Source of the DNA: Cellvibrio sp. OA-2007
GTDB taxonomy: Bacteria > Pseudomonadota > Gammaproteobacteria > Pseudomonadales > Cellvibrionaceae
Assembly (NCBI RefSeq): GCF_000953825.1
Contig: NZ_BBUL01000094.1
Span: 124,001 to 188,000 of the forward strand
Length of the DNA stretch: 64,000 nt
Reading direction: 5' to 3'
The translations under genes and the position numbers were made by a program. Shown here piece by piece: positions 12,381 through 42,640 of the stretch; positions within the stretch are counted from its first letter, which is position 1, and every line of letters starts with the position of its first letter. The notes under the pieces are model-generated. The model was not told the DNA's origin. It was given only the letters and a program-made list of their open reading frames with translations, and searched no databases.

Positions 12381-12535
12381 CCCTCAGACTGTAGGATAAT
12401 GCCCACCACGTAATAGAAGCCGCGACAGGCATAAACCTGTCGCGACAACAAAATTCAATTAAAAAAATCAATAACTTAAAAGGTTTTCCCGCAATGAATA
12501 CCATAGAGCCAATAGACTAGCACCCACCAGTGAGT
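12381..12535 (+). repeat. Relic copy of the mutS promoter and first codons (direct repeat, left)
   Basis: This stretch aligns with the region upstream of mutS at 42483-42640. Shared blocks include ACTCAGACT/GGATAATGCCC near the left end, AAATTCAATTAAAAA in the middle and the segment around the ATG, GCAATGAATACCATAGAGCC, which is identical over 20 bases. The copy reads ATG-AAT-ACC-ATA-GAG-CCA as mutS does but has TAG at codon 9 where mutS has CAG, and similarity ends near codon 12. It is therefore non-functional. The middle part differs from the mutS version by carrying a perfect 9-bp inverted repeat (12421-12444). Confidence 0.8.
12421..12444. repeat. Perfect 9-bp inverted repeat inside the left repeat
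   Basis: CGCGACAGG and CCTGTCGCG surround the 6-base loop CATAAA. There is no T-run, so it is not a standard terminator. The equivalent place upstream of mutS has only a partial version (GGACAGCC ... CCTGCC). It may be an extragenic palindrome or part of the recombination junction. Confidence 0.5.
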
Positions 12536-12564
12536 CATCAATAACCAACCCTTTCGTTCACAAC

Positions 12565-12681
12565 CTATACCAGGATCGGTGATGCGTTGCGATAGACCTC
12601 GATACCAAAATATCCGAGCAGCGAAAATGTAATGGCGAGCACGCCAATCAAGATAAACCACAGTTTGCGATACTCACCCAT
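12565..12681 (-). pseudogene. norB: Truncated norB (quinol nitric oxide reductase), N-terminal remnant
   Basis: A 38-codon open frame whose ATG (12681) overlaps the ytfE stop codon in the arrangement ATGGGTGA, a classic translational coupling. The peptide contains EYRKLWF, a hydrophobic segment, and LLGYFGIEVYR. This matches the conserved first transmembrane helix and following loop of quinol-dependent NO reductases (which continue as EVYRxAPPIP). After Pro35 the similarity stops and a TAG follows; the remaining 700 or so codons are missing, and within about 40 bases the sequence becomes the mutS relic. The gene was therefore cut at the junction. I take this as a 5' fragment of a gene lost by rearrangement; a de novo small protein is less likely. 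Confidence 0.7.
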
Positions 12682-13354
12682 GATTCACCTTCAAGGCACC
12701 ATCAATACGATCAAATAAAATATTATTTTCCAAATGGATGTGATCCATTAAATCGGCTTTTAATGTTTCCAAACCGAAATACAGCGCGCGCCAGGTATTA
12801 CAGGCACCCTTGGGGATAGTGATACCGCGCGTAAGATGTTCTATATCCGCAAGTGCGGCACCGTGGTCATCGTGTTCACTGCGCATCATCGCAATTGGCT
12901 GAATAGCCATGCCGGTAATGCCGCGGCTAATCATGGGAAATAAAATCTGCTCCTCTTTTTGCATATGGTTTTCCAGCTCTTGCAACATAGTTTCAAGATG
13001 TTGCGCTAAACCTGCCGGGCACTCCGTATGCCCGCCATGAACCAACTCTACTCGCTGGGCAAGACGAATTAATTCTGGCAACTGTTGCCGATGAACATCG
13101 TGATAACGTGTCAGTATGTGCTCGATCAACTCAACGTCTGGCACATTGACCCACTCCTGCGCAATCGACGGCTGTGCTTGCAGTGCCTGCAACTCAGCAA
13201 CAATCGCAGCAGGATTCAGCTCGCGGTCACTGAGTGCATCGCGCAGGCTTTTTTTCCCACCACAACAAAAATCCAACTGGTATTTATGAAAAACCGCAGT
13301 ACCTCCCGGAATACTCCGGGCAAGTTGGCCAAGGCTTTGATCGAGAATCATCAT
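12674..13354 (-). CDS. ytfE: Iron-sulfur cluster repair di-iron protein (RIC/YtfE/ScdA)
   Basis: A 226-residue di-iron protein that repairs Fe-S clusters damaged by nitric oxide. The N-terminal ScdA_N domain has the family motif around FHKYQLDFCCGGKKSL (residues 24-39). The C-terminal hemerythrin-like part supplies His and Glu ligands (RYHDVHRQQLPEL, HTECPAGL, HMQKEEQILFPM, MRSEHDDHG, HIHLENNILF). The frame opens earlier at a TTG, but the ATG at 13354 has GGAGAG directly upstream. The gene is divergent from nnrS, with two NsrR-type sites between them, and its stop overlaps the start of the norB remnant. It probably responds to NO through NsrR. Confidence 0.92.
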   Translation of the reverse strand: MMILDQSLGQLARSIPGGTAVFHKYQLDFCCGGKKSLRDALSDRELNPAAIVAELQALQAQPSIAQEWVNVPDVELIEHILTRYHDVHRQQLPELIRLAQRVELVHGGHTECPAGLAQHLETMLQELENHMQKEEQILFPMISRGITGMAIQPIAMMRSEHDDHGAALADIEHLTRGITIPKGACNTWRALYFGLETLKADLMDHIHLENNILFDRIDGALKVNHG

Positions 13355-13425
13355 AATGTCACTCTCCGGCTGCAAAAAAATGCTACTTATTTAAGGCCAT
13401 TTGGCATCTCGCCAAACAGCCCTAT

Positions 13426-13448
13426 AACATGCATTGTAAATGCACCTT
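13426..13448. promoter_or_regulatory. NsrR-type binding site 1 (ytfE-nnrS)
   Basis: A 23-base dyad with half-sites ATGCATT and AAATGCA separated by GT, flanked by AAC and CCTT. This fits the gammaproteobacterial NsrR consensus (AAGATGCATTT, then its complement). It lies in the divergent ytfE-nnrS promoter region; nsrR itself is 1.3 kb away. Confidence 0.65.
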
Positions 13449-13451
13449 TTA

Positions 13452-13474
13452 AAGATGTAAAATAAATACATGTT
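13452..13474. promoter_or_regulatory. NsrR-type binding site 2 (nnrS promoter)
   Basis: A second 23-base dyad, AAGATGTAAAA then TAAATACATGTT, only 3 bases from site 1. It overlaps the upstream in-frame ATG at 13470, which supports the downstream ATG at 13527 as the true nnrS start. Confidence 0.6.
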
Positions 13475-13526
13475 TAAAGTAAAAGATTTTTCGCTTTGCC
13501 GCGCTTTCGCTACCACAGAGGTTTTC

Positions 13527-14711
13527 ATGAATCACTCTTTCCCAGCGTCCGCACTTCTTGCGCATCCCTTTCGTCCCTTTTTTCTATTAGCAGGATTGTA
13601 TGGCGTTATTACCATTGCCGCCTGGATAGGTTTTTTATTTGGTGGCCTATCACTGCCCCTTGGCTGGTCGCCGGTACACTGGCACAGCCATGAAATGTTA
13701 TTTGGTTTGATTCCACTGGCTATCGCTGGTTTTTTATTGACTGCCGTATGCAACTGGACTGGTGCGGCGCCCCTGCACGGCAAAGCACTAGCTGCACTGA
13801 TTGCACTCTGGTTCGCTGGCCGTGCGGCGATGTGGACTGCAAGCTGGTGGCCGGTAGCTGTAGTGGCCGCCATTGATTTATTATTTATGCCGGTGATGGC
13901 CATTTATATGACGCGCGTTTTATTGCAGCACGGAAATACGCGCAATTTGCCCATCGCCGCGATTTTAATCTTACTTAGTCTCGCCAATCTGTTTATGCAT
14001 ATTGGTTTTATCGCAACCAATCCACTGTGGTTACAGCGCGGCGAATTAATGGCACTGGGCCTAATAACGTTGATGATGATTGTTATCGGCGGCCGAATAA
14101 TTCCGCTATTTACCGCCAATTGGCTGCGCAATCAAGGCATGCAGGCTGATGCAATAAAATCATTTTCTTTACTGGATCGCGCGGCAATTATTGCCACACT
14201 ACTGTTAATTCCCCTCGATTTTTTCAGCGGTTTACCTTGGTTAACTGGCATTGCCGCGTTAAGTGCCGGTGTACTTAACACACTGCGTTTACTCGGCTGG
14301 TCGGGTTGGCGCACGGCGCGGGAACCACTACTGTGGATTTTGCATCTGGGTTATGGCTGGATTGTGGTTGCACTCTTGCTCAAGAGCGCTGCAGCCTTTA
14401 ACCTCATCGCCCCTACCGCCTGGCAACATGCACTCGGCGTGGGCGCAATGGGCACTCTGATTCTGGGGGTAATGACTCGTGTCGCTCTTGGGCACACTGG
14501 TCGCCCGCTCAGTTTGCCGCGCTTTGGTGTAGTGATTTATCTCGCGATTAGCACAGCCGCATTAGCCCGTGTACTGGCCGCAGTACAATTATTGGATTAC
14601 CGTACTGGGCTGTTCACCGCCGCGTTCTGTTGGTCGCTCGCTTTTGGCGTATTTACCTTGATTTACTGGCCAATACTCACCCGCCCACGCGCAGATGGCC
14701 GCCCTGGATAA
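13527..14711 (+). CDS. nnrS: NnrS family heme-copper membrane protein
   Basis: A polytopic inner-membrane protein of 394 residues with about 12 hydrophobic segments. NnrS proteins carry heme and copper and protect cells against nitric oxide and nitrosative stress. Typical motifs are visible: HPFRPFFLLAG near residue 12, WHSHEMLFG near residue 50, GRIIPLFTANW near 190 and GVMTRVALGHTGRPL near 315. The frame opens at 13470, but that ATG lies inside an NsrR site; the ATG at 13527 has AGAGG 6 bases upstream. It is followed closely by nsrR (11 bases), so repressor and target appear to be co-transcribed. Confidence 0.93.
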   Translation: MNHSFPASALLAHPFRPFFLLAGLYGVITIAAWIGFLFGGLSLPLGWSPVHWHSHEMLFGLIPLAIAGFLLTAVCNWTGAAPLHGKALAALIALWFAGRAAMWTASWWPVAVVAAIDLLFMPVMAIYMTRVLLQHGNTRNLPIAAILILLSLANLFMHIGFIATNPLWLQRGELMALGLITLMMIVIGGRIIPLFTANWLRNQGMQADAIKSFSLLDRAAIIATLLLIPLDFFSGLPWLTGIAALSAGVLNTLRLLGWSGWRTAREPLLWILHLGYGWIVVALLLKSAAAFNLIAPTAWQHALGVGAMGTLILGVMTRVALGHTGRPLSLPRFGVVIYLAISTAALARVLAAVQLLDYRTGLFTAAFCWSLAFGVFTLIYWPILTRPRADGRPG

Positions 14712-14722
14712 AAGAGAAAGTT

Positions 14723-15160
14723 ATGCATATAACCCGTTATACCGACTACTCCCTGCGTGTCCTTATGTACGTTGCCCTCAAGGGCGAAGAAATTTCTACC
14801 ATTGGTGAGATTGCCGATAGCTACCACATTTCTAAAAATCATTTAATGAAAGTCGTGCAGGAACTTAACGCCAAAGGGTATTTAATTGCCGTGCGAGGGA
14901 AAAATGGCGGGCTGCGTTTAAATGGCCGCGCTGAAGATATTAATATCGGCGGCTTGGTGCGAGACACAGAACAGGATCTAGCACTCGTCGAATGTTTCGC
15001 TGGCGCTCAGGGCTGCACCATCACACCGGCATGCCACCTTAAATCTGTTTTTGCAGAAGCCTTGGAGGCGTTTTTCAAAGTGCTCGATCAATACACTCTG
15101 GCCGACCTACTGCCTAAACAAAAACAAGCGACGCTGATTAAATTATTAGGTATTAATTAA
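14723..15160 (+). CDS. nsrR: Rrf2-family nitric-oxide-sensing repressor NsrR
   Basis: A 145-residue Rrf2-type winged-helix repressor with an Fe-S cluster that senses nitric oxide. It begins MHITRYTDYSLRVLMYVAL, the canonical NsrR N-terminus. The helix-turn-helix covers IGEIADSYHISKNHLMKVVQEL. The cluster cysteines are in ECFAGAQGCTITPACHLK (about residues 93-108, spacing C-x6-C-x5-C). The open frame extends upstream into nnrS, but the ATG at 14723 is the family start. With two NsrR-type sites upstream of nnrS and ytfE, autoregulation through the nnrS promoter is likely. Confidence 0.92.
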   Translation: MHITRYTDYSLRVLMYVALKGEEISTIGEIADSYHISKNHLMKVVQELNAKGYLIAVRGKNGGLRLNGRAEDINIGGLVRDTEQDLALVECFAGAQGCTITPACHLKSVFAEALEAFFKVLDQYTLADLLPKQKQATLIKLLGIN

Positions 15161-15179: not shown

Positions 15180-17051
15180 TTAGCGCGATTCATTCAATAT
15201 ATCGGATGTGATAATGCCATTCTTTTGCCGAACCTTAATAAAATCAGGCATAAACTCAAAACTAACCAGCACACCGCCATCTACCAGGTTAGATACCAAC
15301 AGCTCACCGCCCAAATGTTTCGCCCGCTCTTTCATAATGGCCAAACCATAATGATTCACTTTTTCCGGTGAGTCCGGCAGGCCGCTGCCATCATCGGCGA
15401 TCGTTAAACTGATCGCCTGCTCCGCACTTTGCCACAGCCGTATCGCCAGGTTTTTTCCACCGCTGTGATTGATCGAGTTCTGACTGGCCTCTCGAATAAT
15501 TTGCAATAAATGAATTTCCTCATTGGGGGTCAGCGGAATATTACTGAGGGCAAAATCAAAGTGAATGTTCATTGAATTTTGTGCACGCAGCTGTTCAATA
15601 CTGGACTCAAGCGCAACCTTTAAACCGCTGCCATCAATTTTCAAGCGGAACGTGGTTAACAATTCGCGCAATTGGCGATAAGCATTATTTAGTCCTTCAC
15701 GCAATTCATCGGCCACATCTTCCATAGTGATTTTATCTTCGCGATCAATTGCCCGATTGAGGCGAGTTACTTGAATTTTTAAGTAGGACAGCGCTTGGGC
15801 GAGCGAATCGTGCAGCTCGCGGGCAATGGCATTGCGCTCCTGTAGAACCGCCAGCCGACGGGATTGATCTTCATCGGTTTTTAAACTCATGCCAATCGCC
15901 AATTGATCGGTAGTTGATTGGATTAACTGCTCTTGCCAAGGCGACAGTAATTGCTGCTCACTGACACGGCACACAATCAAGCCATAGTGCCGCTCATTAC
16001 GCATTAACTGAAAGCGATATGTTGCCATACCACTCGCTTTTTCTACCACGCCCCGGCTGGATAAACATTTGGAGCAATTTTGTTTTTTACAAAGCTCGGC
16101 ATTAATATCAGTGGCCGGCTTAATTTGCAGATAAGGGCTATTACCCTCGGTTGTCATCAAACACAATTCTAAATCTGAAATGCCAATAGTTTCCCCCAGA
16201 TGAGAAATAATGGCATCGTAATTTATTCCCTGTGGATTGTGTTCGATAATAATTTTTGCGGTTTCATATAAAAATTGCAGAGAGCGATTGGACTGTTGTA
16301 GCGCCTTGGTTTTTTCATCCACCTGTTGTTCAAGGTGATCGTAACTATTAGCAATTGAGCGGCTCATAAGATTAAATGTGCTGGCCAGCACACCCAGCTC
16401 ATCTTGATTATGAACCGGTATTTGGTGGCGAAAATCCCCTTGGGAAATGCGCTTAGCCATGGTCGTTAATTGATTCAGCGGCTGCTCCACTTTAACTCTC
16501 AAGGAATACATCACCAGCGCCGACACTAATAAGGTGGCAAATAATGCAATAATTTGCACCAAACGAAAACTGCGGACTTTTTGTTCTGCATCTTGCTGAA
16601 TGGTTTGCACCAGTGCATCCAGCAACTGAATGTGTTCATCCAGCAGTAATTGTAAGTGTTGCTCAGCCGCCAAACCCTGCTGCTGTTTCATACGGTTAAA
16701 TTCCGGCAATAAATGCACCCGCCAATTTTCAACGGCACGGTTATACAACTCGCGAATTTTTGGCTTCTCGTGCAAAAAGGGAATAAATACCGGGTTGTTC
16801 CAGGTGTCTTCAATTTTCTGCTGCGCACTGTGCCATTGCGCCATATCGGGCGTGTCATCCATCGCCAGCAAACCCAAGCGATAACTTTGCATACGTAAAG
16901 AGCCCGCAACATTGATCGCCAAGGAATCGCTTTCAGCGCGCTCCGACAGCCAATAAGAAATCAACATTGTGCTCATGCCCAACACGACTATGCCAGCAAG
17001 CGCCACACTGACGCGCACAATAATGGAAGATTTGGATGCAAGTGAATTCAT
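15180..17051 (-). CDS. narX: Nitrate/nitrite sensor histidine kinase NarX
   Basis: An inner-membrane two-component sensor of 623 residues. The first transmembrane segment (residues 9-30) leads into the periplasmic nitrate sensor with the P-box SLRMQSYRLGLLA (about residues 46-58). A second transmembrane segment lies near residues 165-182, followed by HAMP (PLNQLTTMAKRISQGDF). The central module has the cysteine cluster CKKQNCSKC, as in NarX/NarQ proteins. The HisKA_3 phospho-acceptor is ARELHDSLAQALSYLK and the HATPase N-box is REASQNSINHSG. The response regulator narL is not adjacent but lies 21 kb away in the same anaerobic block. Upstream there is a NarL-type 7-2-7 site shared with the CBS gene. 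Confidence 0.93.
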   Translation of the reverse strand: MNSLASKSSIIVRVSVALAGIVVLGMSTMLISYWLSERAESDSLAINVAGSLRMQSYRLGLLAMDDTPDMAQWHSAQQKIEDTWNNPVFIPFLHEKPKIRELYNRAVENWRVHLLPEFNRMKQQQGLAAEQHLQLLLDEHIQLLDALVQTIQQDAEQKVRSFRLVQIIALFATLLVSALVMYSLRVKVEQPLNQLTTMAKRISQGDFRHQIPVHNQDELGVLASTFNLMSRSIANSYDHLEQQVDEKTKALQQSNRSLQFLYETAKIIIEHNPQGINYDAIISHLGETIGISDLELCLMTTEGNSPYLQIKPATDINAELCKKQNCSKCLSSRGVVEKASGMATYRFQLMRNERHYGLIVCRVSEQQLLSPWQEQLIQSTTDQLAIGMSLKTDEDQSRRLAVLQERNAIARELHDSLAQALSYLKIQVTRLNRAIDREDKITMEDVADELREGLNNAYRQLRELLTTFRLKIDGSGLKVALESSIEQLRAQNSMNIHFDFALSNIPLTPNEEIHLLQIIREASQNSINHSGGKNLAIRLWQSAEQAISLTIADDGSGLPDSPEKVNHYGLAIMKERAKHLGGELLVSNLVDGGVLVSFEFMPDFIKVRQKNGIITSDILNESR

Positions 17052-17193: not shown

Positions 17194-17685
17194 ATGATGA
17201 ATACTACCAATACTAGCGGCTCTTGCGCCAAAGATATTATGAGCAGCACATTATTAACCGCCTATGAGGGCTGGACGATCAGCCGTTTGGCGGATTTTTT
17301 TATTAACCGAAAAATTTCCGCCGCGCCGGTCATAGCATCAGACCACGAATTAGTAGGAGTGGTAAGCATAAGCGACGTATTTAAATTTAATAACCTCACC
17401 GAGGGCGATAAAAGTAATGCACTGCGCAATCACTATAGGGATAGCTGCGGTCAGGAAATAAATGAAGAGGTGTTGCGCTCCTGGGTGAAGGATGCCGACA
17501 AAAACTGCACGGTGCATCAGATAATGACCCATGAAGTAATTGCAATCGACCAGCGTGAATCAATTAAATCAGTCGCACAATTGCTGCTTGAACAACATTT
17601 ACATCGCGTATTTGTCACCGACAACAATAAAGTAATCGGTGTTATTACTGCTATGGATGTGCTAGCCGCCCTCGCCCCGCATTAA
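17194..17685 (+). CDS. CBS-domain-pair protein
   Basis: A soluble 163-residue protein consisting of two CBS domains (AKDIMSSTLLTAYEGWTISR ... VGVVSISDVFKF, and VHQIMTHEVIAIDQRESI ... VIGVITAMDVLAAL). CBS pairs bind adenine nucleotides and act as energy sensors. Small CBS proteins are often found in redox and respiratory loci, but their partner is usually unknown. It lies between narX and narGHJI, is divergent from narX and is followed by a strong terminator, so it is a single-gene unit. The NarL-type site upstream suggests nitrate-dependent expression. Confidence 0.85.
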   Translation: MMNTTNTSGSCAKDIMSSTLLTAYEGWTISRLADFFINRKISAAPVIASDHELVGVVSISDVFKFNNLTEGDKSNALRNHYRDSCGQEINEEVLRSWVKDADKNCTVHQIMTHEVIAIDQRESIKSVAQLLLEQHLHRVFVTDNNKVIGVITAMDVLAALAPH

Positions 17686-18023: not shown

Positions 18024-21000
18024 ATGAGTCATCTACTCGACAAATTACGTTTTTTTAAAAAACGTCAAGAACCCTTTGCTGATGGGCATGGTGCTACCAC
18101 CAATGAAGATCGCACTTGGGAGCAAGGTTATCGTCAACGCTGGCAGCACGATAAAATTGTGCGCTCAACCCACGGAGTCAATTGCACCGGTTCTTGTAGC
18201 TGGAAAATTTACGTGAAAGACGGTTTGATCACTTGGGAAACCCAACAGACAGATTACCCGCGCACACGCCCCGATTTACCAAACCATGAACCGCGCGGCT
18301 GCCCTCGCGGCGCCAGTTACTCCTGGTATATTTACAGCGCCAATCGCTTGAAATATCCCAAAGTGCGTCAGGCATTAATTGAACTTTGGCGCGAAGCGCG
18401 GCAGGAATATTGCGACCCGGTAGAAGCCTGGGGTTCCATTGTGGAAGATCCCGCACGCGCAAAAAAATATAAATCCCGTCGCGGTCTGGGCGGTTTTGTG
18501 CGCGCCCACTGGGGCGAAGTCAATGAAATTATTGCCGCTGCAAATGTGTACACCGCAAAAACCTATGGGCCAGATCGCATTAGCGGTTTCTCGCCTATTC
18601 CCGCTATGTCGATGGTGTCCTACGCGGCTGGCTCGCGCTACCTATCATTAATTGGCGGCAACTGTTTAAGTTTTTACGATTGGTATTGCGACTTACCACC
18701 TTCATCACCACAGGTGTGGGGCGAGCAAACCGACGTTCCTGAATCGGCCGATTGGTATAACTCCAATTACATTATTGTATGGGGCTCTAACGTTCCGCAG
18801 ACACGCACACCCGATGCGCATTTTTTATCTGAAGTTCGCTATAAGGGCACCAAAACCTGCGTCATCACTTCCGATTATTCAGAAGCATCAAAATTTGGCG
18901 ACACTTGGCTGGCGCCCAAACAAGGCACCGATGCAGCGCTGGGCATGGCGTTTGGCCATGTCATCTTAAAAGAATTTCACATCGATAATCCCAGTACCTA
19001 TTTTACCAACTATGTAAAACAATATACCGATATGCCCATGCTGGTAATGCTCGAACCACATGGCGAGCATTTAACCCAAGGGCGTTTTTTACGCGCAGCA
19101 GATTTAGTGGACAATCTTGGGCAAGAAAATAATCCCGACTGGAAAACCATTGCTATTAATTCACAGACACAAGAATTAATCAGCCCCAATGGTTCGATTG
19201 GATACCGCTGGGGGCAAAGTGGTAAGTGGAATCTTGAACAGCGCGACGGAAAAAACGGCGCTGAAACAGATACGCTTTTGTCGTTAAAAAATAACTGCGA
19301 TGAAATTATTGACGTTGCCTTCCCCTACTTCGGCGGCAACGAACACGAATATAACTATTTTAAACACACCGATCACAGCGATATTCAATTGCGCAAAGTG
19401 CCAGCACGCAAAGTGCTGCTGGCCAATGGTGAAACCACTTGGGTAGCCAGTGTGTTTGATTTGATGGTTGCACACTACGGTGTAGACAATGGTTTGGGTG
19501 ATGCCAATGTAGCCAAGAGTTTTGATGAGGACGCGCCCTACACCCCCGCATGGCAAGAAAAAATTACCGGCGTAAAACGCGAAGATGTTATTCGGGTTGC
19601 ACGTGAGTTTGCGCGCACCGCTGATAAAACCCATGGCCGCTCAATGGTGATTGTAGGCGCTGCACTCAATCACTGGTACAACATGGATATGAATTACCGC
19701 AGCCTGATTAATATGCTGATGATGTGCGGCTGCATTGGCCAAAGTGGCGGCGGTTGGGCACATTATGTCGGCCAGGAAAAACTGCGCCCACAAAATGGTT
19801 GGCTGCCACTTGCGTTTGGTTTGGATTGGCAGCGCCCACCGCGCCAAATGAACGGCACCTCATTTTTCTATAATCATGCCAGCCAGTGGCGCTACGAAAA
19901 ATTGGATATGAGTGAAGTAGTTTCACCACTCGCCAACAAAGAAAAATGGAGCGGCAGTATTATCGATTTTAATGCGCGCGCTGAGCGTATGGGCTGGCTG
20001 CCTTCTGCTCCACAATTAAAAACCAATCCACTGAGCATTGTTGCAGCCGCAACTGCCGCAGGAAAATCGCCCAAGGATTATGTAGTTGAAAAACTCAAAA
20101 GCGGTGAAATTGAATTTTCCTGTGTCGACCCCGACGCACCGGAAAATTTTCCGCGCAACCTCTTTATCTGGCGCTCCAACTTATTGGGCTCTAGCGGTAA
20201 AGGCCACGAATATATGCTGCACCATTTGCTCGGCACCAAACACGGTTTGCTCGGCAAAGACCTGGGTGCAGATGGCAAAAAACCGGAAGATGTGAAATGG
20301 CATCACGAAGGTGCAGAGGGCAAGGTGGATTTATTAGTCACACTGGATTTCAGAATGTCCACCACCTGTTTGTATTCCGACATAGTGCTGCCAACCGCAA
20401 CCTGGTATGAAAAAGACGATATGAATACCTCGGATATGCATCCGTTTATTCATCCACTCACCAAAGCCATTGATCCGGTATGGGAATCGCGCAGTGACTG
20501 GGACATTTTTAAAGGTATAGCCAAAAAATTCTCATCACTTTGTGAAGGTCATTTGGGAGTCGAGCAAGATTTTGTTACGCAACCCATGATGCACGATTCA
20601 CCCGATGAACTCGCTCAACCCTACGGTGTTAAAGCCTGGTGGAAAGGTGAATGTGAAGCCATACCCGGGCTGACCATGCCCAATATGGTGGTGGTAGAAC
20701 GCGATTACCCCAACACCTATAAACGTTTTACCTCCGTTGGCCCGCTGCTCGAATCACTCGGCAATGGCGGCAAAGGCATTAAGTGGGATACCAAAGAAGA
20801 AGTGGAATTCCTCGGTAAATTAAATCGCATTCACCATGAGGAAGGTGCGCATCAAGGTCGCCCGAAAATTGAAACAGCAATTGATGCCTGCGAAGTTATT
20901 TTATCGCTCGCACCAGAAACCAATGGGCATGTTGCGGTAAAAGCCTGGGATGCACTTTCAAAAATTACCGGGCGCGACCACACCCATTTAGCCAAACCCA

Positions 21001-21746: not shown

Positions 21747-21812
21747 ACCAAGGCGATCGCTGTTAAAAAATCGTAGCTTCTTAAATTATTATTCTCGACC
21801 GGAGAAATTAAC

Positions 21813-24088: not shown

Positions 24089-24099
24089 TAGGAGCAGTT

Positions 24100-30346: not shown

Positions 30347-30364
30347 TAATAAAAGGTTGCGATT

Positions 30365-33317: not shown

Positions 33318-33412
33318 TCTCACTAGAAACAACGCCGAGCTTCATGACCTAACGTCATCCCGACTATGGCATTAAGCCAATGGGTCTGTTTAGAAATGAA
33401 CAGGCCTCCCGG
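33318..33412 (+). promoter_or_regulatory. Probable molybdenum cofactor (Moco) riboswitch in the moaA leader
   Basis: The leader before moaA carries the landmarks I know from the Moco RNA motif: CGCCGAGC near the 5' side (33333-33340), a short hairpin ATGAC-CTAAC-GTCAT, and a terminal stem GGTCTGTT ... AACAGGCC closed by the loop TAGAAATG, ending in GGCCTCCC (33403-33410). The moaA ribosome site (GGAAAGG) follows immediately, so control of translation is plausible. The family is found upstream of moaABCDE in many gammaproteobacteria. The call is from pattern memory without a covariance-model search. Confidence 0.7.
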
Positions 33413-33428
33413 ATTGGAAAGGTGTTTT

Positions 33429-34415: not shown

Positions 34416-34442
34416 ACCCTGTTAACAACAAGCGAGCTATTT

Positions 34443-34988
34443 ATGGGACACCACACCACTGACACTACACTACCGCTGGCAATTGCAGTTCTAACCGTAT
34501 CTGACACCCGCACCATGGCCACTGACACTTCCGGTGCCGCATTAATTGAGCGGCTGCAAGAAGCGCAGCACCAATTGGCTGCGCGCGCATTGGTTATTGA
34601 TGATATTTATCAAATCCGCGCCCAGTGTTCGCAGTGGATTGCGGATCAAACCATTCAGGTTATTTTAATTACCGGCGGCACCGGTTTTACCGGACGCGAT
34701 TCAACACCCGAGGCGATGACACCGCTGTTTGATAAAACAGTGGAAGGTTTTGGTGAATTATTTCGCCAGATTTCTTATCGCCACATAGGCACGTCAACTA
34801 TTCAATCGCGCGCGGTTGCAGGGCTTGCAAACAACACTCTCATTTTCTGCTTGCCTGGCTCTACCAATGCCTGCAGAACTGCCTGGGATGAAATTATTAA
34901 ATACCAACTGGATTCAACCCAGGGGCCTTGCAACTTTGTGCCACATTTAAAAAAGACCGAGCGCTCACCCTGCGGCACACGAAGCTAA
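34443..34988 (+). CDS. moaB: Molybdopterin adenylyltransferase-like protein MoaB
   Basis: A 181-residue protein of the MoaB/Mog fold. Typical segments are [43 protein letters not shown] near residue 78 and [19 protein letters not shown] near residue 140. Family members adenylate molybdopterin before Mo insertion (MogA) or are paralogues whose role is less clear (E. coli MoaB). As no mogA is seen here and moeA is present, this gene may serve as the adenylyltransferase. Confidence 0.9.
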
Positions 34989-35002
34989 TCAGGCACCCAC
35001 CG

Positions 35003-35518
35003 ATGAACCAACAATACCTAACACAAAACCCATCAAGCCTGACGCATCTGGATCAAACCGGTGCTGCCTGCATGGTGGATGTCAGCGATAAAGCGGTCAC
35101 CAAACGTATTGCCGTTGCCAGTGCGATGCTGATCACCCGCCCAGATGTGATTGAACTCATCAACAGTGCCAGCTTGAAAAAAGGCGATGTATTAGCCACC
35201 GCGCGTATTGCCGGCATTATGGCAGCAAAAAAAACGGCCGATTTAATTCCACTTTGCCACCCTTTGGCGCTCGCCAAAGTCAGTATCGACTTTGATTGCA
35301 ATCTCGCTCTGGGCTCTATCGCTATTCGCGCGCGCTGTATCACCAATGGTCAAACCGGCGTGGAAATGGAAGCGCTGACCGCAGCCAGTGTTGCCGCGCT
35401 AACCATTTACGATATGTGCAAAGCGGTAGATAAACACATGGAGATCAACTCTATTTATGTAGAACAAAAATCCGGTGGCAAAACAGGGGATTGGCAAAAG
35501 GAGAGCGAGCATGATTAA
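35003..35518 (+). CDS. moaC: Cyclic pyranopterin monophosphate synthase
   Basis: Converts 3',8-cH2GTP to cyclic pyranopterin monophosphate. It has 171 residues including a short N-terminal extension before [23 protein letters not shown]. Catalytic motifs are [22 protein letters not shown] and [23 protein letters not shown], and the final KSGGKTGDW is diagnostic. The open frame begins earlier inside moaB, but the ATG at 35003, 14 bases after the moaB stop, is the sensible start. Its stop overlaps the moaD start by 8 bases (ATGATTAA). Confidence 0.95.
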
Positions 35519-35759
35519 AGTATGTTTTTTTGCCGACTTGCGCGAGCGCCTCGGTTGCGCGGACATGTTGGTCGAGCATTTTTCAGGTGAAAACATCGCC
35601 CAGCTGAAAGATTTTATCGTTAAACAACATCCGCAGTGGGAGAAAATATTTTTAGAAAAAAAATTGTTGATCGCCGTCAATCACGCCATGGCCAACAATA
35701 ACTCTGCGATTGTAGCAGGTGATGAGGTCGCTTTTTTTCCGCCAGTGACAGGTGGCTAA
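35511..35759 (+). CDS. moaD: Molybdopterin synthase small subunit (sulfur carrier)
   Basis: A ubiquitin-fold sulfur carrier of 82 residues ending in the required GG (FFPPVTGG), which is thiocarboxylated by MoeB. The ATG at 35511 overlaps the moaC stop and is preceded by GGAGAG. It forms molybdopterin synthase with MoaE. No moeB gene lies in the window. Confidence 0.93.
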
Positions 35760-35769
35760 GTAGGTATAT

Positions 35770-36240
35770 ATGAGCAATTCAGTGCGTGTACAAACAGAAG
35801 ATTTCGATTTAAATAAAGAATACAACCATTTAAGAGCGGCGCATTACCCCTGTGGTGCGGTGGTACTCTTTAGCGGACTGGTGCGCGATTTCTTGCCGCC
35901 ACAGCAGCTAATTAGTCTTGAGCTGGAACACTATCCCGGCATGACCGAGGCGATGCTTCAGCAGCTCAGCACAGCGGCAACCGCACGCTGGAAATTACTC
36001 GGCACAACAATTATTCATCGCACTGGAAAGCTGTTGCCGGGCGACCAGATTGTGTTGGTGGGTGTATCCAGCGCACACCGCACCGATGCTTTTGAAGCCG
36101 CTCAATTTATTATGGATACATTAAAAACCAGCGCACCGTTTTGGAAAAAAGAAACGCTTAAACAATACCCGGGCAGCGCTCCGGAATCTTACTGGGTTGC
36201 CGCCAAAGACAGCGACGAACAACTTGCACAGCGCTGGTAA
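35770..36240 (+). CDS. moaE: Molybdopterin synthase catalytic subunit
   Basis: A 156-residue large subunit of molybdopterin synthase, which inserts two sulfurs into cyclic pyranopterin monophosphate. Family motifs: CGAVVLFSGLVRDF near residue 29, LELEHYPGMTEAML near 55, HRTGKLLPGDQIVLVGVSSAHR near 84 and the catalytic lysine region PFWKKETLKQYPG near 127. It is the last gene of moaABCDE, 12 bases from the convergent tauE-like gene. Confidence 0.95.
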   Translation: MSNSVRVQTEDFDLNKEYNHLRAAHYPCGAVVLFSGLVRDFLPPQQLISLELEHYPGMTEAMLQQLSTAATARWKLLGTTIIHRTGKLLPGDQIVLVGVSSAHRTDAFEAAQFIMDTLKTSAPFWKKETLKQYPGSAPESYWVAAKDSDEQLAQRW

Positions 36241-36252: not shown

Positions 36253-36990
36253 TCACCCCAAAAACATTTTTCCGCCTGCAATTAACAGCACTACTGCCAT
36301 CACTTGCCGAATCACGGTGCCGCTAAAACGCTTGCTGCCAAATTCGGCGCCCAGCCAGCCGCCCATAATCGCGGCAATTGCCCAGTAGCTAATGCCCTCG
36401 GGCAAAACCGGATGTTTGGCAATTAGCCCCAGTAAACCCGCGATAGAATTCACTAAAATAAATACTGCCGCTACGCCGGAAATAATGCGCGTTTCACCCC
36501 AGCGGAGAAATAACAAAATGGGGCTCAGAAAAATGCCACCACCCACACCAATCAAGCCAGACAAAAAACCAATGATCGCACCCGTGCCAATTAGCCACAG
36601 TTTTTGTGGTGTTTTGGATTCTTGTAAAACAGCGGCTTTAGCAGTGAAAAATGAATGGAACGCAGCATAAATTAAGACTGCGCCAAGAATGGGTTTGTAG
36701 TAATGACCCGGTAGCGTTAAACCGCCACCGATGAAAGCGCAGGGAATTGAAGTGATAATTAATGACCACAGCAGCGGCCAGGAAAATGCTTTGGCCCGAA
36801 TGTATTTAGTGCTGGCGATGCTCGCCACCAAAATATTTAATACCAGCGCGGCGGGTTTTAAACTTTCCGGAGCCAAGCCCGCAAGCGCCATAATGGCAAT
36901 ATAACCAGAAGCCCCTGCATGCCCCACCGAAGAATAAAGAACTGCGGCAATAAAAATTCCACATGCGATCAAAATAAAAACCAAGTCCAA
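36253..36990 (-). CDS. TauE/SafE-family membrane transporter
   Basis: An integral membrane protein of 245 residues with 7-8 hydrophobic helices and the two TauE/SafE repeats (SVGHAGASGYIAIMALAGL near residue 21 and GFLSGLIGVGGGIFLSPILL near residue 136). These proteins export or import small anions, often sulfur-containing ones. It is the last gene of the minus-strand unit narL-moeA-tauE; a role in moving sulfite, sulfate or an oxyanion related to molybdenum metabolism is conceivable but unproven. The start is a TTG with GAGG 7 bases upstream. Confidence 0.85.
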   Translation of the reverse strand: MDLVFILIACGIFIAAVLYSSVGHAGASGYIAIMALAGLAPESLKPAALVLNILVASIASTKYIRAKAFSWPLLWSLIITSIPCAFIGGGLTLPGHYYKPILGAVLIYAAFHSFFTAKAAVLQESKTPQKLWLIGTGAIIGFLSGLIGVGGGIFLSPILLFLRWGETRIISGVAAVFILVNSIAGLLGLIAKHPVLPEGISYWAIAAIMGGWLGAEFGSKRFSGTVIRQVMAVVLLIAGGKMFLG

Positions 36991-37008: not shown

Positions 37009-38265
37009 TTAGCTAATAAATTTATCAAACGGGATAACAGTAACGGTTTCACCGGGTTGCACTGTGCCCCGCTCCGCTTCCAAGCGAATATAACAATTGG
37101 CTTTTGCCATGCTGCTTAACACACCGGAACTTTGTGAACCAGCACTGACAACGCGATTAACACCTTGGTCATTAATTAAAATTCCGCGCTGAAAATCCAT
37201 TCGCCCCGGCTGTTTTTTTAATCGCTGTTCGGCGATGGCACTCAACTGCATAAGCTCAAGCGTTTTTTCACCGGCCAAATATCGCACCGCAGGCACCACC
37301 AATTGGTGATAAGTCACTGCCGTTGACACAGGGTTGCCCGGCAAACCAACAAACCAACCCGCGCCCAAGCGGCCAAATGCAAATGGCTTGCCCGGTTTCA
37401 TGGCGATTTTCCAAAAATCGATTTCACCTAATTCTGCTAACACGGCTTTGGTGTAGTCCGCATCCCCCACCGATACACCGCCGCTAGAAATAACCAGATC
37501 GGCCCATTGCATGGCTTGAGTAAACGCCGTCCGCAATGCGGGCAGATCATCGGCAACTATGCCGACGTCTTTAACCTCCACCGCTAAACGCTGCAAGAGT
37601 GCACAGAGTAATGGGCGATTGCTGTCATAAATTTTGTCGGCATTGTGCGGCGCGCCCGGTGGCAATAATTCATCGCCGGTAGATAAGACCGCGATGCGCA
37701 ATTTCCGCCAGACTTTTACTCGCGCAATACCCAGCGATGCCAGCAGACCTATATCCAGCGCACTAATGCGATGGCCTTGGCTTAGAATTTCACTGCCGAT
37801 TTTTATATCTTCACCCGCGCGGCGAATATTATCCCCCGTCACAACCGCTGTATTTAACTGCAGGGTTTCGCCGGTGCGCGTAACATTTTCTTGCATCACT
37901 ACTGTATCGGCACCGGCAGGAATCATTGCACCCGTCATAATGCGAACTGCCTGCATGCTACCAAGTGCAGATGCTGCACCCTGTTGCGCTGCAAAACAAA
38001 ATGGGTGCCCGGCCAGCGACTGCCCAATCACCTCAAACAGCGCGCCATCAGTTTGAGCATCGGCACCGCGCAGTGCGTAACCATCCATCGCCGAATTATC
38101 ACTGGCAGGAACATTAATGCTGGCCAGTACCGCTTCAGCAAGCACACGATCTAACGCAAGCGCTACATCAACCCATTCCGTTTCTTGCACTGGAATTAAT
38201 TGTTGCTGCATACGCAACAGCGCATCTTCTACCGGTAACAAACCAAGTTGTGCACAACAGTCCAT
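37009..38265 (-). CDS. moeA: Molybdopterin molybdenumtransferase
   Basis: A 418-residue enzyme that inserts molybdate into adenylated molybdopterin. It shows SDNSAMDGYALRGAD near residue 57, the catalytic MoCF domain signature (VLSTGDELLPPG near 192 and SSGGVSVGDADYTKAVL near 262) and the GLPGNPVSTAVTYHQLVVPAVRYLAG segment near 320. It lies 20 bases downstream of narL, on the same strand, so Mo insertion is tied to the nitrate response regulator unit. Confidence 0.95.
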   Translation of the reverse strand: MDCCAQLGLLPVEDALLRMQQQLIPVQETEWVDVALALDRVLAEAVLASINVPASDNSAMDGYALRGADAQTDGALFEVIGQSLAGHPFCFAAQQGAASALGSMQAVRIMTGAMIPAGADTVVMQENVTRTGETLQLNTAVVTGDNIRRAGEDIKIGSEILSQGHRISALDIGLLASLGIARVKVWRKLRIAVLSTGDELLPPGAPHNADKIYDSNRPLLCALLQRLAVEVKDVGIVADDLPALRTAFTQAMQWADLVISSGGVSVGDADYTKAVLAELGEIDFWKIAMKPGKPFAFGRLGAGWFVGLPGNPVSTAVTYHQLVVPAVRYLAGEKTLELMQLSAIAEQRLKKQPGRMDFQRGILINDQGVNRVVSAGSQSSGVLSSMAKANCYIRLEAERGTVQPGETVTVIPFDKFIS

Positions 38266-38285: not shown

Positions 38286-38930
38286 TTAGTTTTGCTGATT
38301 AATCATCCACACTGCGGCTTCCACCCGTGAACGCAAATGCAATTTTTTTAACAAATGTTTAACGTGTACTTTAACGGTGCCGTCGGAGATATCCAATTCG
38401 CGAGCAATCACTTTATTGCTCATGCCCTTGGCAATTAATTTTAGAATTTCCAATTCGCGCTGGGTGAGACTGTCGCTCCCCTCGGCGGCTTTAGTGGTGG
38501 GGTTGCGAATAGCGGTAGCCAACACTTGTGTAACCGCTTCACTCAATACCATTTTGCCCGACAAAGCGCGTTCGATTTGCACCAGCATATCTTCCGGCTC
38601 CATGTCTTTCAGTAAATAGCCATCGGCTCCTGCTGAAATTGCACTGAGCACATCTTCATCGGCATCGGAAACGGTCAGCATCACAATGCGTGACGTGACA
38701 CCCTCATCGCGCAAATGGCGCAGAGTTTCCAATCCATCCATGCCCTGCATATTTAAATCTAACAGAATTAAATCCGGGTCGAGCTCACTCGCCAATTTAA
38801 TTGCATCTTTGCCATTACTCGCTTCGGCTACCACTTCCATATCGCCCGCCAGGGTTAACAGTTGACGCAAACCTTTGCGCAATAACGGATGATCGTCCAC
38901 CAACATGATGCTCGCGGCTGTCTCTGTCAC
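38286..38930 (-). CDS. narL: Nitrate/nitrite response regulator NarL
   Basis: A 214-residue response regulator. Receiver domain: acidic pocket in MLVDDHPLLRKGL, phospho-acceptor Asp in LILLDLNMQGMDGLETL (near residue 58), and the Lys of YLLKDMEP near 108. The C-terminal LuxR-type helix-turn-helix is LTQRELEILKLIAKGMSNKVIARELDISDGTVKVHVKHLLKKL. It pairs with NarX at 15180-17051 although the genes are 21 kb apart. It is the first gene of a unit with moeA and tauE, divergent from narK2; a NarL-type site lies in the gap, which suggests autoregulation. Confidence 0.93.
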   Translation of the reverse strand: MTETAASIMLVDDHPLLRKGLRQLLTLAGDMEVVAEASNGKDAIKLASELDPDLILLDLNMQGMDGLETLRHLRDEGVTSRIVMLTVSDADEDVLSAISAGADGYLLKDMEPEDMLVQIERALSGKMVLSEAVTQVLATAIRNPTTKAAEGSDSLTQRELEILKLIAKGMSNKVIARELDISDGTVKVHVKHLLKKLHLRSRVEAAVWMINQQN

Positions 38931-39163: not shown

Positions 39164-40780
39164 ATGTCTGATCTAAAACAATGGGAACCGGAACAGCAAG
39201 CCTTTTGGGATTCAAGCGGGCGAACAATTGCAAATCGCAATCTGTGGATCTCGATTCCAAGTTTATTGTGTGGTTTTGCCGTATGGATGCAGTGGAGCAT
39301 TATCACGGTACAAATGCTAAACCTTGGCTTTCCTTATCAGGCCGGTGATTTATTTAGCCTTGCCGCAATTGCTGGTTTAACCGGGGCGACACTCCGTATT
39401 CCAGCAAGTTTTTTTATTCGCCTGTGCGGCGGGCGCTACACCATTTTTTTAACAACCAGTTTGTTAATGGTACCGGCAGTGGGCACCGGCCTCGCATTGC
39501 AGGATCAAAACACACCCTTTTGGGTATTCCAATTAATGGCGCTGCTATCGGGTATTGGCGGCGGTAATTTTGCTGCGTCTATGTCTAACATCAGTTTTTT
39601 TTACCCGCGCAAACAACAGGGATTAGCACTCGGCCTAAATGCCGGGCTGGGCAATTTTGGAGTAACCAGTATGCAAATTCTGGTACCGCTATTTATGACC
39701 TTTGGCGCTTTTGGTGCATTGGGCGGCGACCCGATGATTTTGAAATCTGCAAGCGGCACACTCATAGGTTCAATTCCAGCCGGTACTGAAACCTGGATTC
39801 AAAATGCCGGTTTTGTGTGGTTGCTCCTGCTGATTCCGCTGGCCTTTGCGATTTGGTTTGGCATGAACAATATCAACACCGCCGACGTTACCCCCAACCT
39901 GGCTGGTGGGGCACCGCGCTCTTTTGCCATCATCATTGCCATGATGTTAATTGGTTTTGCCACTTCTGTATTCGGGCTGTGGTTAATTATGCCTGCCAGT
40001 GTAAACGGTTCCGGTTTTGGTATTCCTAAAGAGCTTGCACTCGTACTGGTATTGTTTGCCACCGTGATGTTACTGAAAGCACTGCCGGGTACAATTCGCA
40101 CCAGCCTGGATCGGCAATACAAAATTTTTAACAACAAACACACTTGGGTCATGAGTGTGTTGTATGTGATGACGTTTGGCTCCTTTATTGGATTTTCAGC
40201 GGCCTTTCCTCTGTCGATTCAAGTGATATTTGGTTTTAGTCATGTCGCGATTGATGGAGTAATGACTCACAACACGGTCAACCCAAATGCGCCGAGTGCA
40301 TTGACCTACGCCTGGATTGCTCCCTTTATTGGCGCGCTTATTCGCCCTGTAGGCGGCTGGGTATCAGACAAATTTGGCGGCGCACTGGTCACCCAAGTGT
40401 GTGCGATTAGCATGGTAATTTTGTCGGTGGCAGCAGCTTATTACATGCGCCTGGCCTATCAATCCGCTCACCCTGAACATTATTTTGTCCCTTTCTTTTT
40501 AGTCTTTTTAGGGTTATTTGCCGCAAGCGGCATGGGCAATGGTTCAACTTTTTGCTCTATCGCCAATATTTTTCCGAAAGAACAAGCCGGGCCGGCATTA
40601 GGCTGGACTTCAGCGGTTGCAGGTTACGGCGCGTTTTATATTCCGCAGGTTTTTGGTGAGCAAATAAAAGCGGCTACACCTGAATATGCAATGCTGGGTT
40701 TTGCCGTATTTTATTTGGTTTGTGTGTTATTAAACTGGGGCTTTTATTTACGCAAACAGGGTGAATTTTATAACCCCTAA
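39164..40780 (+). CDS. narK2: Nitrate/nitrite MFS transporter, NarK type (second, longer copy)
   Basis: A major facilitator protein of 538 residues with about 12-14 hydrophobic helices. It resembles the longer NarK2/NarU-like branch (nitrate/nitrite antiport). It shows GGRYTIFLTTSLLMVPAVGTG, the nitrate signature NAGLGNFGVTSMQILVPLF near residue 158, and a large loop between helices. Together with the shorter narK at 31508 it gives the paired narK1/narK2 set known from denitrifiers, here split by the moa genes. It is convergent with hemN; a long inverted repeat lies between them. Confidence 0.92.
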   Translation: MSDLKQWEPEQQAFWDSSGRTIANRNLWISIPSLLCGFAVWMQWSIITVQMLNLGFPYQAGDLFSLAAIAGLTGATLRIPASFFIRLCGGRYTIFLTTSLLMVPAVGTGLALQDQNTPFWVFQLMALLSGIGGGNFAASMSNISFFYPRKQQGLALGLNAGLGNFGVTSMQILVPLFMTFGAFGALGGDPMILKSASGTLIGSIPAGTETWIQNAGFVWLLLLIPLAFAIWFGMNNINTADVTPNLAGGAPRSFAIIIAMMLIGFATSVFGLWLIMPASVNGSGFGIPKELALVLVLFATVMLLKALPGTIRTSLDRQYKIFNNKHTWVMSVLYVMTFGSFIGFSAAFPLSIQVIFGFSHVAIDGVMTHNTVNPNAPSALTYAWIAPFIGALIRPVGGWVSDKFGGALVTQVCAISMVILSVAAAYYMRLAYQSAHPEHYFVPFFLVFLGLFAASGMGNGSTFCSIANIFPKEQAGPALGWTSAVAGYGAFYIPQVFGEQIKAATPEYAMLGFAVFYLVCVLLNWGFYLRKQGEFYNP

Positions 40781-40811
40781 TTCTGGCTGCTTCTTTTCAT
40801 ATCACTAACAC

Positions 40812-40864
40812 AACAGCACCAACATCACACGACCAATTTCGCCAAGTGAAGTTGGTGCTGTTTT
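40812..40864. terminator. Bidirectional hairpin between narK2 and hemN
   Basis: AACAGCACCAAC (40812-40823) pairs perfectly with GTTGGTGCTGTT (40851-40862); the 27-base loop may fold internally. TTTT follows on the plus strand, so it can end narK2 transcripts. Confidence 0.65.
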
Positions 40865-40925
40865 AACTCTAGCGATTAACACTAGCGAAAGAAACAATAA
40901 TCAATAACAACGCAGGGATTTTGAA

Positions 40926-42317
40926 TTAAATTACTTTGGAGTAGCGAATCGCGGATGAGTTGTTGAGGTAGGCATCAAACACCATGCAAACTCTGCGAAT
41001 TAATAAGCGCCCGGCATTTAGCACTTCTATTCCTGTATCACTAACTGTTAACAGGCCATCATCAACCATGGGTTTTAATTGCGATAACTCCGCAGCAAAA
41101 TGACGCTGCACATCAATATCAAATACCTTTCCGATAGCGGCAAAATTTAACTCAAAATGACAAATTAATTGATTGATAACACGCTGGCGCAACAGATCTT
41201 CTGTGCTGAGTACCACACCTTTAATAAAAGGAATAGCGCCTTCATCAATAGCTTGTTGATAGGGCTCAACGCGTTTTGCGTTTTGTATATAGGCATTTCC
41301 AAATGCGCTAATTGCAGAGGCGCCAAAAGACAGCAAATCGCAATCGCCATGCGTGGAATAGCCCTGAAAATTGCGCTGCAATTTCCCAGCTCTTTGCGCC
41401 TGCACCAAACTATCTTCCGGTTTGGCAAAATGATCCATCCCGATATAAATATACCCAGCGTTTTGCAAACGCTCTATCGCCATATACAAAAGTTCGAGTT
41501 TTTGTTCGGCAGATGGAAGATCCTGTTGATTAATTAATTCCTGACTCTTAAACAGATGCGGCATGTGTGCATAATTAAATAATGACAAACGATCAGGAGA
41601 CAGCTCAATCACTCGATCCAATGTTTCGCCAACACTGCTCAATGTTTGCATGGGCAATCCATAGATTAAATCCATACTGATTGAATGATATTCCTGCTGC
41701 CTTAGCGCTTTTACCAGCGCACTGACCTCTTCAACACTGTTGTAACGATTAACTGCTTTTTGCACCTGGGCATTAAAATCCTGCACGCCCATACTGACAC
41801 GATTAAAACCAAGCTGGCGCAGGTGCGCCATAGTGTTAGCCGATACGCGCCCCGGATGAATTTCTATGGAGTACTCGCCTGCGTCATCATCCAGCAAGGT
41901 AAAGTGCTTACGTGTTGCATTCATCAGCCAAGTCATTTCTTCATCGCTAATAAATGTGGGCGTACCGCCACCCCAATGCAATTGAGTGACAGGCCGCGCG
42001 GTATCAAATAGCGCCGTCTGTAGCGCCATCTCCTGCCCCATACGCTCCAAATAAGGTTGCGCACGGCCTTTATTATTAGTCACTACCTTGTTGCATCCGC
42101 AATAAAAACAGAGCGTATCGCAAAAAGGAATATGAAAATAAAGCGACAGCGGCCTACCGCTTGCATTGCTACGCGCAACCGCTGCGTTAAAATCAACCGC
42201 CGAAAAATTTTCATGAAATTGTGGTGCTGTGGGGTAAGAGGTATAACGCGGGCCGGTTAAATCGTACTGGCGAATTAGATTGGAATCCCATTTAAGCGGA
42301 GCTTGAAAGTGTGCCAT
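40926..42317 (-). CDS. hemN: Oxygen-independent coproporphyrinogen III oxidase
   Basis: A radical-SAM enzyme of 463 residues that decarboxylates coproporphyrinogen III in heme synthesis without oxygen. The cluster motif is CDTLCFYCGCNK (C-x3-C-x2-C-x-C) near residue 66, with the N-terminal YDLTGPRYTSYPTAPQF typical of true HemN, and HWGGGTPTFIS, SIEIHPG and SMGVQDFN as further landmarks. AAGG lies 7-8 bases before the ATG. An FNR-type box lies about 80 bases upstream. It is the right-most gene of the anaerobic block, directly before the mutS repeat. Confidence 0.95.
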   Translation of the reverse strand: MAHFQAPLKWDSNLIRQYDLTGPRYTSYPTAPQFHENFSAVDFNAAVARSNASGRPLSLYFHIPFCDTLCFYCGCNKVVTNNKGRAQPYLERMGQEMALQTALFDTARPVTQLHWGGGTPTFISDEEMTWLMNATRKHFTLLDDDAGEYSIEIHPGRVSANTMAHLRQLGFNRVSMGVQDFNAQVQKAVNRYNSVEEVSALVKALRQQEYHSISMDLIYGLPMQTLSSVGETLDRVIELSPDRLSLFNYAHMPHLFKSQELINQQDLPSAEQKLELLYMAIERLQNAGYIYIGMDHFAKPEDSLVQAQRAGKLQRNFQGYSTHGDCDLLSFGASAISAFGNAYIQNAKRVEPYQQAIDEGAIPFIKGVVLSTEDLLRQRVINQLICHFELNFAAIGKVFDIDVQRHFAAELSQLKPMVDDGLLTVSDTGIEVLNAGRLLIRRVCMVFDAYLNNSSAIRYSKVI

Positions 42318-42394
42318 AGCTAACCTTGTGTTATTGGGTCAGAGTTATTTGTGCGCAATAATCTTTCAGCATACCTGCGTCATTTTGAATGCCG

Positions 42395-42408
42395 TTGACT
42401 TGCGTCAA
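42395..42408. promoter_or_regulatory. FNR/Anr box upstream of hemN
   Basis: TTGACTTGCGTCAA: a perfect dyad of the Anr-type variant TTGAC-N4-GTCAA, centred about 84 bases upstream of the hemN ATG. Confidence 0.65.
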
Positions 42409-42482
42409 GTCGCCATGTGTTACAAAACATTTAACCGCGTAATCATCCCAGCTAGCTTCCACACATTTGCGCGCCCTTAGCC

Positions 42483-42640
42483 ACTCAGACTATGGGATAA
42501 TGCCCGCCATTTATAACAACCATGACTACCGCCAGGACAGCCACAGACCTGCCAAAGGCAAGTAAATTCAATTAAAAATCAATTACTTAAAAGATTCTCC
42601 GCAATGAATACCATAGAGCCAACAGACCAGCACACACCTA
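42483..42640 (+). repeat. mutS promoter and 5' end, right direct repeat
   Basis: The intact counterpart of the relic at 12381-12535; the similarity includes the mutS upstream region and its first 12 or so codons. The real mutS start lies at 42604. Confidence 0.8.

Follow-up and report, generated by a model that had tools for sequence, protein, structure and literature searches.

The mutS gene of Cellvibrio sp. OA-2007 is preceded by a 30-kb set of nitrate-respiration genes (the block), flanked by two copies of the mutS 5′ end in direct orientation. We analyzed this arrangement in a 64,000-nt stretch of contig NZ_BBUL01000094.1 (the window, whose positions are used throughout). Judged by their sequence, the two copies are best read not as the mutS promoter of most relatives but as the scar of an element that inserts into mutS, consisting of an integrase fragment, a leader and a mutS start. 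The account that we favor, to which we give slightly less than an even chance, is that DNA ending in its own copy of such a scar brought the nitrate cluster of the genus into the mutS hotspot. The genome of the window is referred to as G000 and its same-genus relatives as G001–G020, giving 21 same-genus genomes.

A Direct Repeat of the mutS 5′ End Bounds the Block

The two copies, at 12380–12528 and 42481–42638, have the same orientation and are identical in 120 of 161 aligned columns (75%, E 4e-25), as a reading made earlier from the letters alone (the sequence-only reading) had proposed. Only these two places in the genome match the repeat strongly; the other 15 listed matches have E-values of 0.03 or more. 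As a control, the left copy was compared with 964 random 400-bp pieces of the window, which gave at most 27.4 bits as against 102 bits for the observed repeat. Both joints are located inside one contig of the assembly.

The left scar (12380–12528, + strand) has the appearance of a decayed end of a mutS element, with an integrase fragment recognized by its homology to the right copy, a leader and the first 12 codons of mutS. The orphan start that it contains (12494–12528, +) reads MNTIEPID*HPP, with a stop at codon 9, and is broken at the HTPMMQQ motif: the match to mutS ends in codon 12, at HTP (position 12528), and MM is missing. The right scar (42481–42640, +) is intact through HTPMMQQ and carries an element-type leader and start that now serve the intact mutS gene (42604–45249, +), whose product begins with MNTIEPTDQ. 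Divergent to mutS, a GHYP.V segment at 42469–42514 (−) is a probable integrase remnant, matching the integrase gene of G004 over 46 columns with 80% identity. The hidden Markov model (HMM) score of this fragment was equalled by 2 of 300 shuffles, and its layout is that of the clear fragment found in G002.

The sequence-only reading had taken the repeats for the promoter region and start of mutS. We rejected the idea that they represent the usual mutS promoter of the genus, as the segment GACTGTGGGATAATGCC, searched with up to 4 changes allowed, is absent from the 330 bp before codon 10 in 20 loci. In G004 the GACTGTGGGATAATGCC segment is found farther upstream, within the integrase gene. No sigma-70-like promoter was found in 42300–42640.

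mutS Is an Integrase Hotspot in Related Genomes

Elements inserted in the HTPMMQQ motif of mutS have been described in Beta- and Gammaproteobacteria (Chu et al., 2017; PMC5296598). According to the part of that paper available to us, they range from 4 to over 150 kb, vary in gene content and give mutS a new promoter and start, its former start being left as an orphan. Within the genus, an intact tyrosine integrase (PF00589, PF13356) is encoded divergently from mutS in G004 and in G017, by a gene of about 430 codons in each case. In G004, which has no narG in its genome, the order is the VCBS gene of our left flank, a 2453-aa gene, the integrase gene and mutS. In G017, a second mutS start, broken and orphaned, is located 15 kb upstream of mutS, from which it is separated by other cargo; the start in use there belongs to a further type. 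The G017 island (locus L049, 4021–18679) encodes a TrwC relaxase, a TrwB-like coupling protein, E1-E2 and JAB defense genes and the intact integrase, a content suggestive of an integrative mobilizable element that carries anti-phage genes.

The G002 locus (L079, 3671–3864, on a contig of 4.2 kb) has one truncated-integrase scar beside mutS and the start MNAIEPTDQ. Its integrase fragment is clear (HYPTV…, 23 aa, 70%, E 1.5e-6), and there are no nar genes in the 3.8 kb before the scar. A single scar without nar genes suggests that the truncated scar predates the block at this site, and G002 is the nearest thing we have to the state before that arrival. The starts in the window (MNTIEPxD) are of the element type, like those of G004 (beside its integrase), of G002 and of the left copy in G017. 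G001, G011 and many others keep other mutS starts, such as MSN…EAND and MSNILESND; G008 and G020 are left out of this comparison. None of integrase, scar or orphan start was seen in 15 of 18 same-genus loci (stretches of 1.5 to 19 kb, with the last 6 kb searched for the integrase), where the query for a second start was the window’s own, so that a very different orphan start could escape. In G014 (L046), the 19 kb upstream of mutS are taken up by an open reading frame (ORF) of at least 6201 codons. A genus-wide search for the integrase returned G004, G017 and a 29% match in G018, the last on another contig than its mutS. We also looked in G000, G004 and G017 for a G011-type mutS start left elsewhere and found none; only the HTPMM part matched, at mutS, and G017 gave two further weak matches (E 0.5 and 1).

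The association between this integrase and mutS extends well beyond the genus. A sample of 390 genomes of the order gave 14 matches to the integrase (E ≤ 1e-60), and 12 of these are next to mutS. A named collection yielded 73 integrase loci, of which 62 hold mutS, always divergent from the integrase, with a median of 262 bp between the two matches; the gap is within 600 bp in 61 of them and 2.3 kb in one. Five of the 11 loci without mutS end beside the integrase (L148, L174, L183, L190, L193); the rest are L163, L180, L182, L186, L198 and L200. In G039 and G159, members of different families, the DNA is nearly identical up to and into HTPMMQQ, after which the two sequences part. Orphan HTPMM starts were found upstream in four (G348, G255, G358, G036) of the seven genomes that have the integrase beside mutS and at least 12 kb examined. 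No relatives of the integrase turned up in the record sets of plasmids (E ≤ 1e-60) or phages (E ≤ 1e-30). Distant integrases with about 30–33% identity also adjoin mutS on four viral contigs (L213, L214, L225, L228), and more than one integrase subgroup may use the mutS site.

Searching the 73 named loci and 80 viral contigs with 15 block proteins (E ≤ 1e-40), we found narGHJI only in L157; the named loci extend at most about 7 kb past the integrase, which places most of the cargo outside view. In L157 (Pantoea coffeiphila; 3–4011), narGHJI is located 3′ of mutS, beside the mutS island and outside it, which is probably a coincidence.

The Block Has Been Relocated as a Unit

The block (12530–42415) is collinear with clusters located elsewhere in G001 and G014. 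Homology to these starts at 12530, 2 bp past the end of the mutS match in the left copy, inside norB, and continues through hemN to about the box at 42395–42408; the last part and the right limit were placed by eye and are approximate. Both relatives have the same genes in the same order, with norB intact (identified by Pfam in G001), at another chromosomal place. The distance between narG and mutS is about 200 kb in G001 and greater in G014 and G012, the latter having most of the block genes in a different order. In G002 the contig with hemN runs on into a G001-type flank, not into mutS. The collinearity at another place and the onset of homology 2 bp after the left repeat support the view that the block moved as a unit.

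The sequence-only reading had suggested that the block was gained, moved or could be lost as one unit, with base composition and codon use as a check for foreign DNA. Movement as a unit is supported, and a gain from outside is not. The GC content is 0.472 in the block and 0.464 outside, and the GC content at third codon positions is 0.489 in the block and 0.461/0.479 in the flanks. The identity between G000 and G001 is 83.4% over 15 block genes and 83.7% for mutS. Since composition and divergence match the host, a foreign origin of the block in this genome is not supported, and the block looks relocated rather than newly acquired from afar. It is apparently native to the genus, in which 5 of the 21 genomes have narG; at the family level this kind of narG is found in 47 of 144 genomes (E ≤ 1e-100).

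The relatives themselves differ in this respect. Between G001 and G014 the block genes are 91.0% identical, compared with 80.9% for mutS, 77.9% for 7.8 kb of mutS and downstream DNA and 82.8% for a 3.8-kb flank. The excess of the block over mutS and its downstream DNA points to a passage of the block between these two lineages. In the mutS tree, the node joining G000 and G004 has a support of 0.000.

How the Block May Have Reached mutS

The sequences show the repeat, the movement of the block as a unit, the cut in norB, the element-type starts, the truncated scar that G002 and G017 have in common with the window and, in relatives, intact integrases next to mutS; the order of events, the role of the nitrate cluster as cargo and the action of an integrase are inferred in the favored account, which runs as follows. 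Tyrosine-integrase elements target the HTPMMQQ codons close to the mutS start, so that the old start is orphaned on the left and a new leader and start are provided on the right. In this group of species, what an old element left at mutS would be a scar with a truncated integrase, together with a start of the MN(A/T)IEPTDQ type, a state that persists as a single copy in G002. In the lineage of the window, DNA with the nitrate cluster, ending in its own scar copy, would then have entered mutS at the motif. This entry would have displaced the resident start, now the left scar, and given mutS its present start in the right scar, the block being cut inside norB at the left joint. As the genome has no intact integrase of this type, the joining would have been carried out in trans by an intact integrase located elsewhere or by an accompanying element, and the block would now be fixed.

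Several observations weigh against this course of events. The left joint is not canonical, since norB sequence stands in place of ATGATGCA of the motif, and unlike the left copy the orphan starts in G017, G348, G255, G358 and G036 keep HTPMM. The integrase part of the left copy is not significant on its own, with 13 of 300 shuffles scoring as high. No relative of the mutS integrase was found in G000 at E ≤ 1e-20, the nar regions of G001, G014 and G012 are without such an integrase, and G281, G416 and G101 show no orphan start within about 40 kb. Moreover, the two window copies are closest to each other (119/147), compared with 93/142 and 104/145 against G002 and 98/146 and 106/157 against G017, and one layout is common to all four truncated copies (both window copies, G002 and the left copy of G017). 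As the window copies are sisters with this common truncated layout, the right copy did not stem from an independent element with its own integrase and is rather a close copy of the resident scar. The greater age of the truncated scar lowers the probability of an element-type entry and raises that of illegitimate recombination. A comparison by eye of the norB joint with a pseudo-attachment site was too weak for any claim.

In the latter case, DNA from a related strain in which the block was already joined to the same mutS scar would have entered by homology-facilitated illegitimate recombination and no integrase would have acted. One side would have recombined by homology in the scar or in mutS, and the other would have been joined by chance, mutS codon 12 to norB. 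We consider this a real possibility, short of probable, and a close rival of element-type entry because the left joint is not canonical. By eye, the junction shows only a short common TGA. The block is cut within a gene, the copies are sisters whose truncated layout also stands alone in G002, and G000 has no integrase of this kind, all of which would fit. Such recombination would nevertheless leave it to coincidence that the joint lies no more than about 10 bp from the element insertion motif. It further requires a donor carrying the block next to mutS, and we saw none: some 200 kb or more separate narG from mutS in G001, G014 and G012, and in G002 hemN leads into the G001-type flank.

It is rather improbable that chromosomal rearrangement alone produced the arrangement, with inversions or translocations ending in a mutS island bringing in the nar locus and later deletions trimming both sides. 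Large rearrangements do reach the site, as the VCBS flank is 9.3 kb from mutS in G004 and distant from it in G014 and G017, but by itself this process does not give two direct copies of scar and mutS start around the block. We give hardly any weight to an old vertical arrangement, in which the block always stood beside mutS and the repeat is incidental. The composition of the block, its divergence from G001 and the spread of narG in the family would agree with such descent. The truncated norB and the differing location contradict it, given that G001, G014 and G012 have an intact norB and carry the block at other places (in G012 in rearranged form), and that neither hemN nor other block genes precede mutS in any of 17 same-genus upstream stretches, nor in G002.

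Gene Content of the Block

The block genes named by the sequence-only reading were recovered with HMMs, by which the genes below were identified unless stated otherwise. The products assigned to nsrR, narX, both narK genes and moaE scored under the NCBIfam cut-off, and these exact names are tentative. At the left end of the block is the norB remnant (12553–12681, −; tblastn), which keeps residues 1–43 of 776 and contains an internal stop, the rest being missing. It is followed by ytfE, for RIC iron-sulfur repair (12674–13375, −), nnrS (13470–14711, +), an nsrR-like gene for an Rrf2 regulator (14630–15160, +, with an ORF start that is too early), a gene for a NarX/NarQ-type sensor kinase (15180–17051, −) and one for a CBS-domain protein (17194–17685, +). 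Next come narG, narH, narJ and narI (18024–24789, +), a PPIC-type peptidyl-prolyl isomerase gene (24807–25574, +), nrdG and nrdD (26323–28672, +), ubiT (28736–29251, −), ubiU and ubiV (29339–31258, +), a first NarK-type transporter gene (31508–32767, +) and a gene for a DGC-domain protein (32872–33264, +). The remainder consists of moaA, moaB, moaC, moaD (ThiS family) and moaE (33366–36240, +), a TauE/SafE permease gene (36253–36990, −), moeA (37009–38265, −), narL (38286–38930, −), a second transporter gene of the NarK/NarU type (39164–40780, +) and hemN (40926–42317, −).

The set had been described as a complete kit in which every gene serves anoxic life. It is not complete, with norB cut to about 43 codons and no other NorB found in the genome at E ≤ 1e-60. 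G000 thus keeps narGHJI without NorB, the quinol-type nitric oxide (NO) reductase, which is present in the other four narG-bearing genomes of the genus (in part in G002). Nor is a nitrite reductase among the scanned ORFs of the block. The CBS protein, the isomerase, the DGC-domain protein and the TauE permease have no clear role in anoxia. Three genes of the G001 cluster lack counterparts in the block, namely a MobA-like gene, a second RIC gene and an FG-GAP gene of 501 aa; the best match of the second RIC gene in the window is ytfE, with 56%.

Four matches to TTGAY-N4-RTCAA, which we take to be the consensus of FNR/ANR-type boxes, occur in the window and all four are in the block; 100 base shuffles of the whole window gave a mean of 0.27 and a maximum of 2 boxes. 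One of them, TTGACTTGCGTCAA at 42395–42408 between hemN and mutS, presumably serves hemN.

Flanking Regions

The genes outside the repeats, as had been noted, are unrelated to the block: galactokinase, galT and an FG-GAP protein gene on the left, mutS and mlaA on the right. The FG-GAP protein (9222–12344, +; HMM) has FG-GAP, ASPIC-UnbV and Big_2 domains and is the VCBS protein referred to above. Its gene is near mutS in G004 but not in G014 and G017, and the left flank itself is therefore rearranged. The proposed check for strains with the left flank, one repeat and mutS without the block did not find a clean empty site with this flank, and the nearest states are those of G002 and G004. A 474-aa helicase-like gene, which lies on the right flank of the nar loci in G001 and G014, was considered as a marker of the empty site and rejected because it occurs in several places across genomes. 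It was found in 9 of the 21 genomes (E ≤ 1e-100), beside the VCBS region in G014 and G017 and elsewhere in G000 and G004. At 56465–56641 the window also has 63-bp direct repeats, in tandem and inside a reading frame.

Relation to Known Systems

As far as the available parts of the published descriptions go, the window agrees with the mutS HTPMMQQ elements (PMC5296598) in the orphan start on the left, the element-supplied leader and start on the right and the related integrases beside mutS in relatives, and apparently also in its place in mutS. It differs in having no integrase, an orphan start that is itself of the element type, a decayed and non-canonical left joint and a respiratory block between the scars. 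The sequence-only reading knew of no such island at mutS in this group. This holds for the block and for nitrate cargo at mutS, of which we found no report in the literature covered (supplements and most subscription papers were outside the scope), but insertions in mutS in general are published.

Cis-mobilizable elements (CIMEs; PMC7563491) are, in the part available, decayed elements that keep their attachment sites and have lost the recombination genes. Like these, the block is bounded by apparent remnants of attachment sites, of which the right one is kept, and has no integrase. In contrast, its left attachment-like site is degraded, no conjugation gene was named among the scanned ORFs of the block, and there is no stacked element with a matching integrase in the genome, G004 and G017 having one integrase each. 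Because the left site is degraded, mobilization of the block now looks unlikely.

The accessible accounts of the nitrate clusters of Thermus thermophilus (PMC7694296, PMC5748679) likewise show a whole set of genes in a mobility-prone region without NO reductase, scattered among strains. The Thermus NAR1 cluster is plasmid- and insertion sequence-linked, whereas the block is chromosomal, occupies an integrase hotspot and seems to be native to the genus. The SpyCI islands (PMC4129442, PMC3430984, in part) also occupy the 5′ end of a mismatch-repair gene, which is mutL instead of mutS and belongs to another phylum. A hotspot beside mutS is known from the prophage and pyocin clusters of Pseudomonas fluorescens, which have phage-tail cargo in the mutS-cinA-recA region (PMC2647930); insertion inside mutS is not described in the part of that paper available. 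A Cellvibrio plasmid is described in PMC10462680, the available part of which has no link to the block.

Consequences for the Genus

Loss of the block by recombination between the repeats, as the sequence-only reading envisaged, could occur but is hampered. A crossover before codon 9 would restore an intact mutS, and a later one would place the stop of the orphan start in mutS. Such deletions should be rare because the longest exact run common to the two scars is only 24 bp. We consider it unlikely, though still worth stating, that the genus has an integrase-less form of the mutS element, with one truncated integrase end common to both window copies, G002 and the left copy of G017, which is moved in trans by the intact mutS integrases of relatives and can pick up chromosomal clusters. 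If so, an anaerobic-respiration program and the leader of a mismatch-repair gene would travel together.

Taken together, the window offers a case in which a whole respiratory module native to the genus appears to have been moved into an integrase hotspot and fixed there, with the gene for nitric oxide reductase severed at the joint. To the published family of mutS elements it contributes, from one genus, a relic, a locus with a single scar (G002) and two loci that bear the integrase (G004 and G017). The proximity of the mutS start to an FNR/ANR-type box, at a distance of about 0.2 kb, makes it possible to test whether oxygen and mutation rate are linked.

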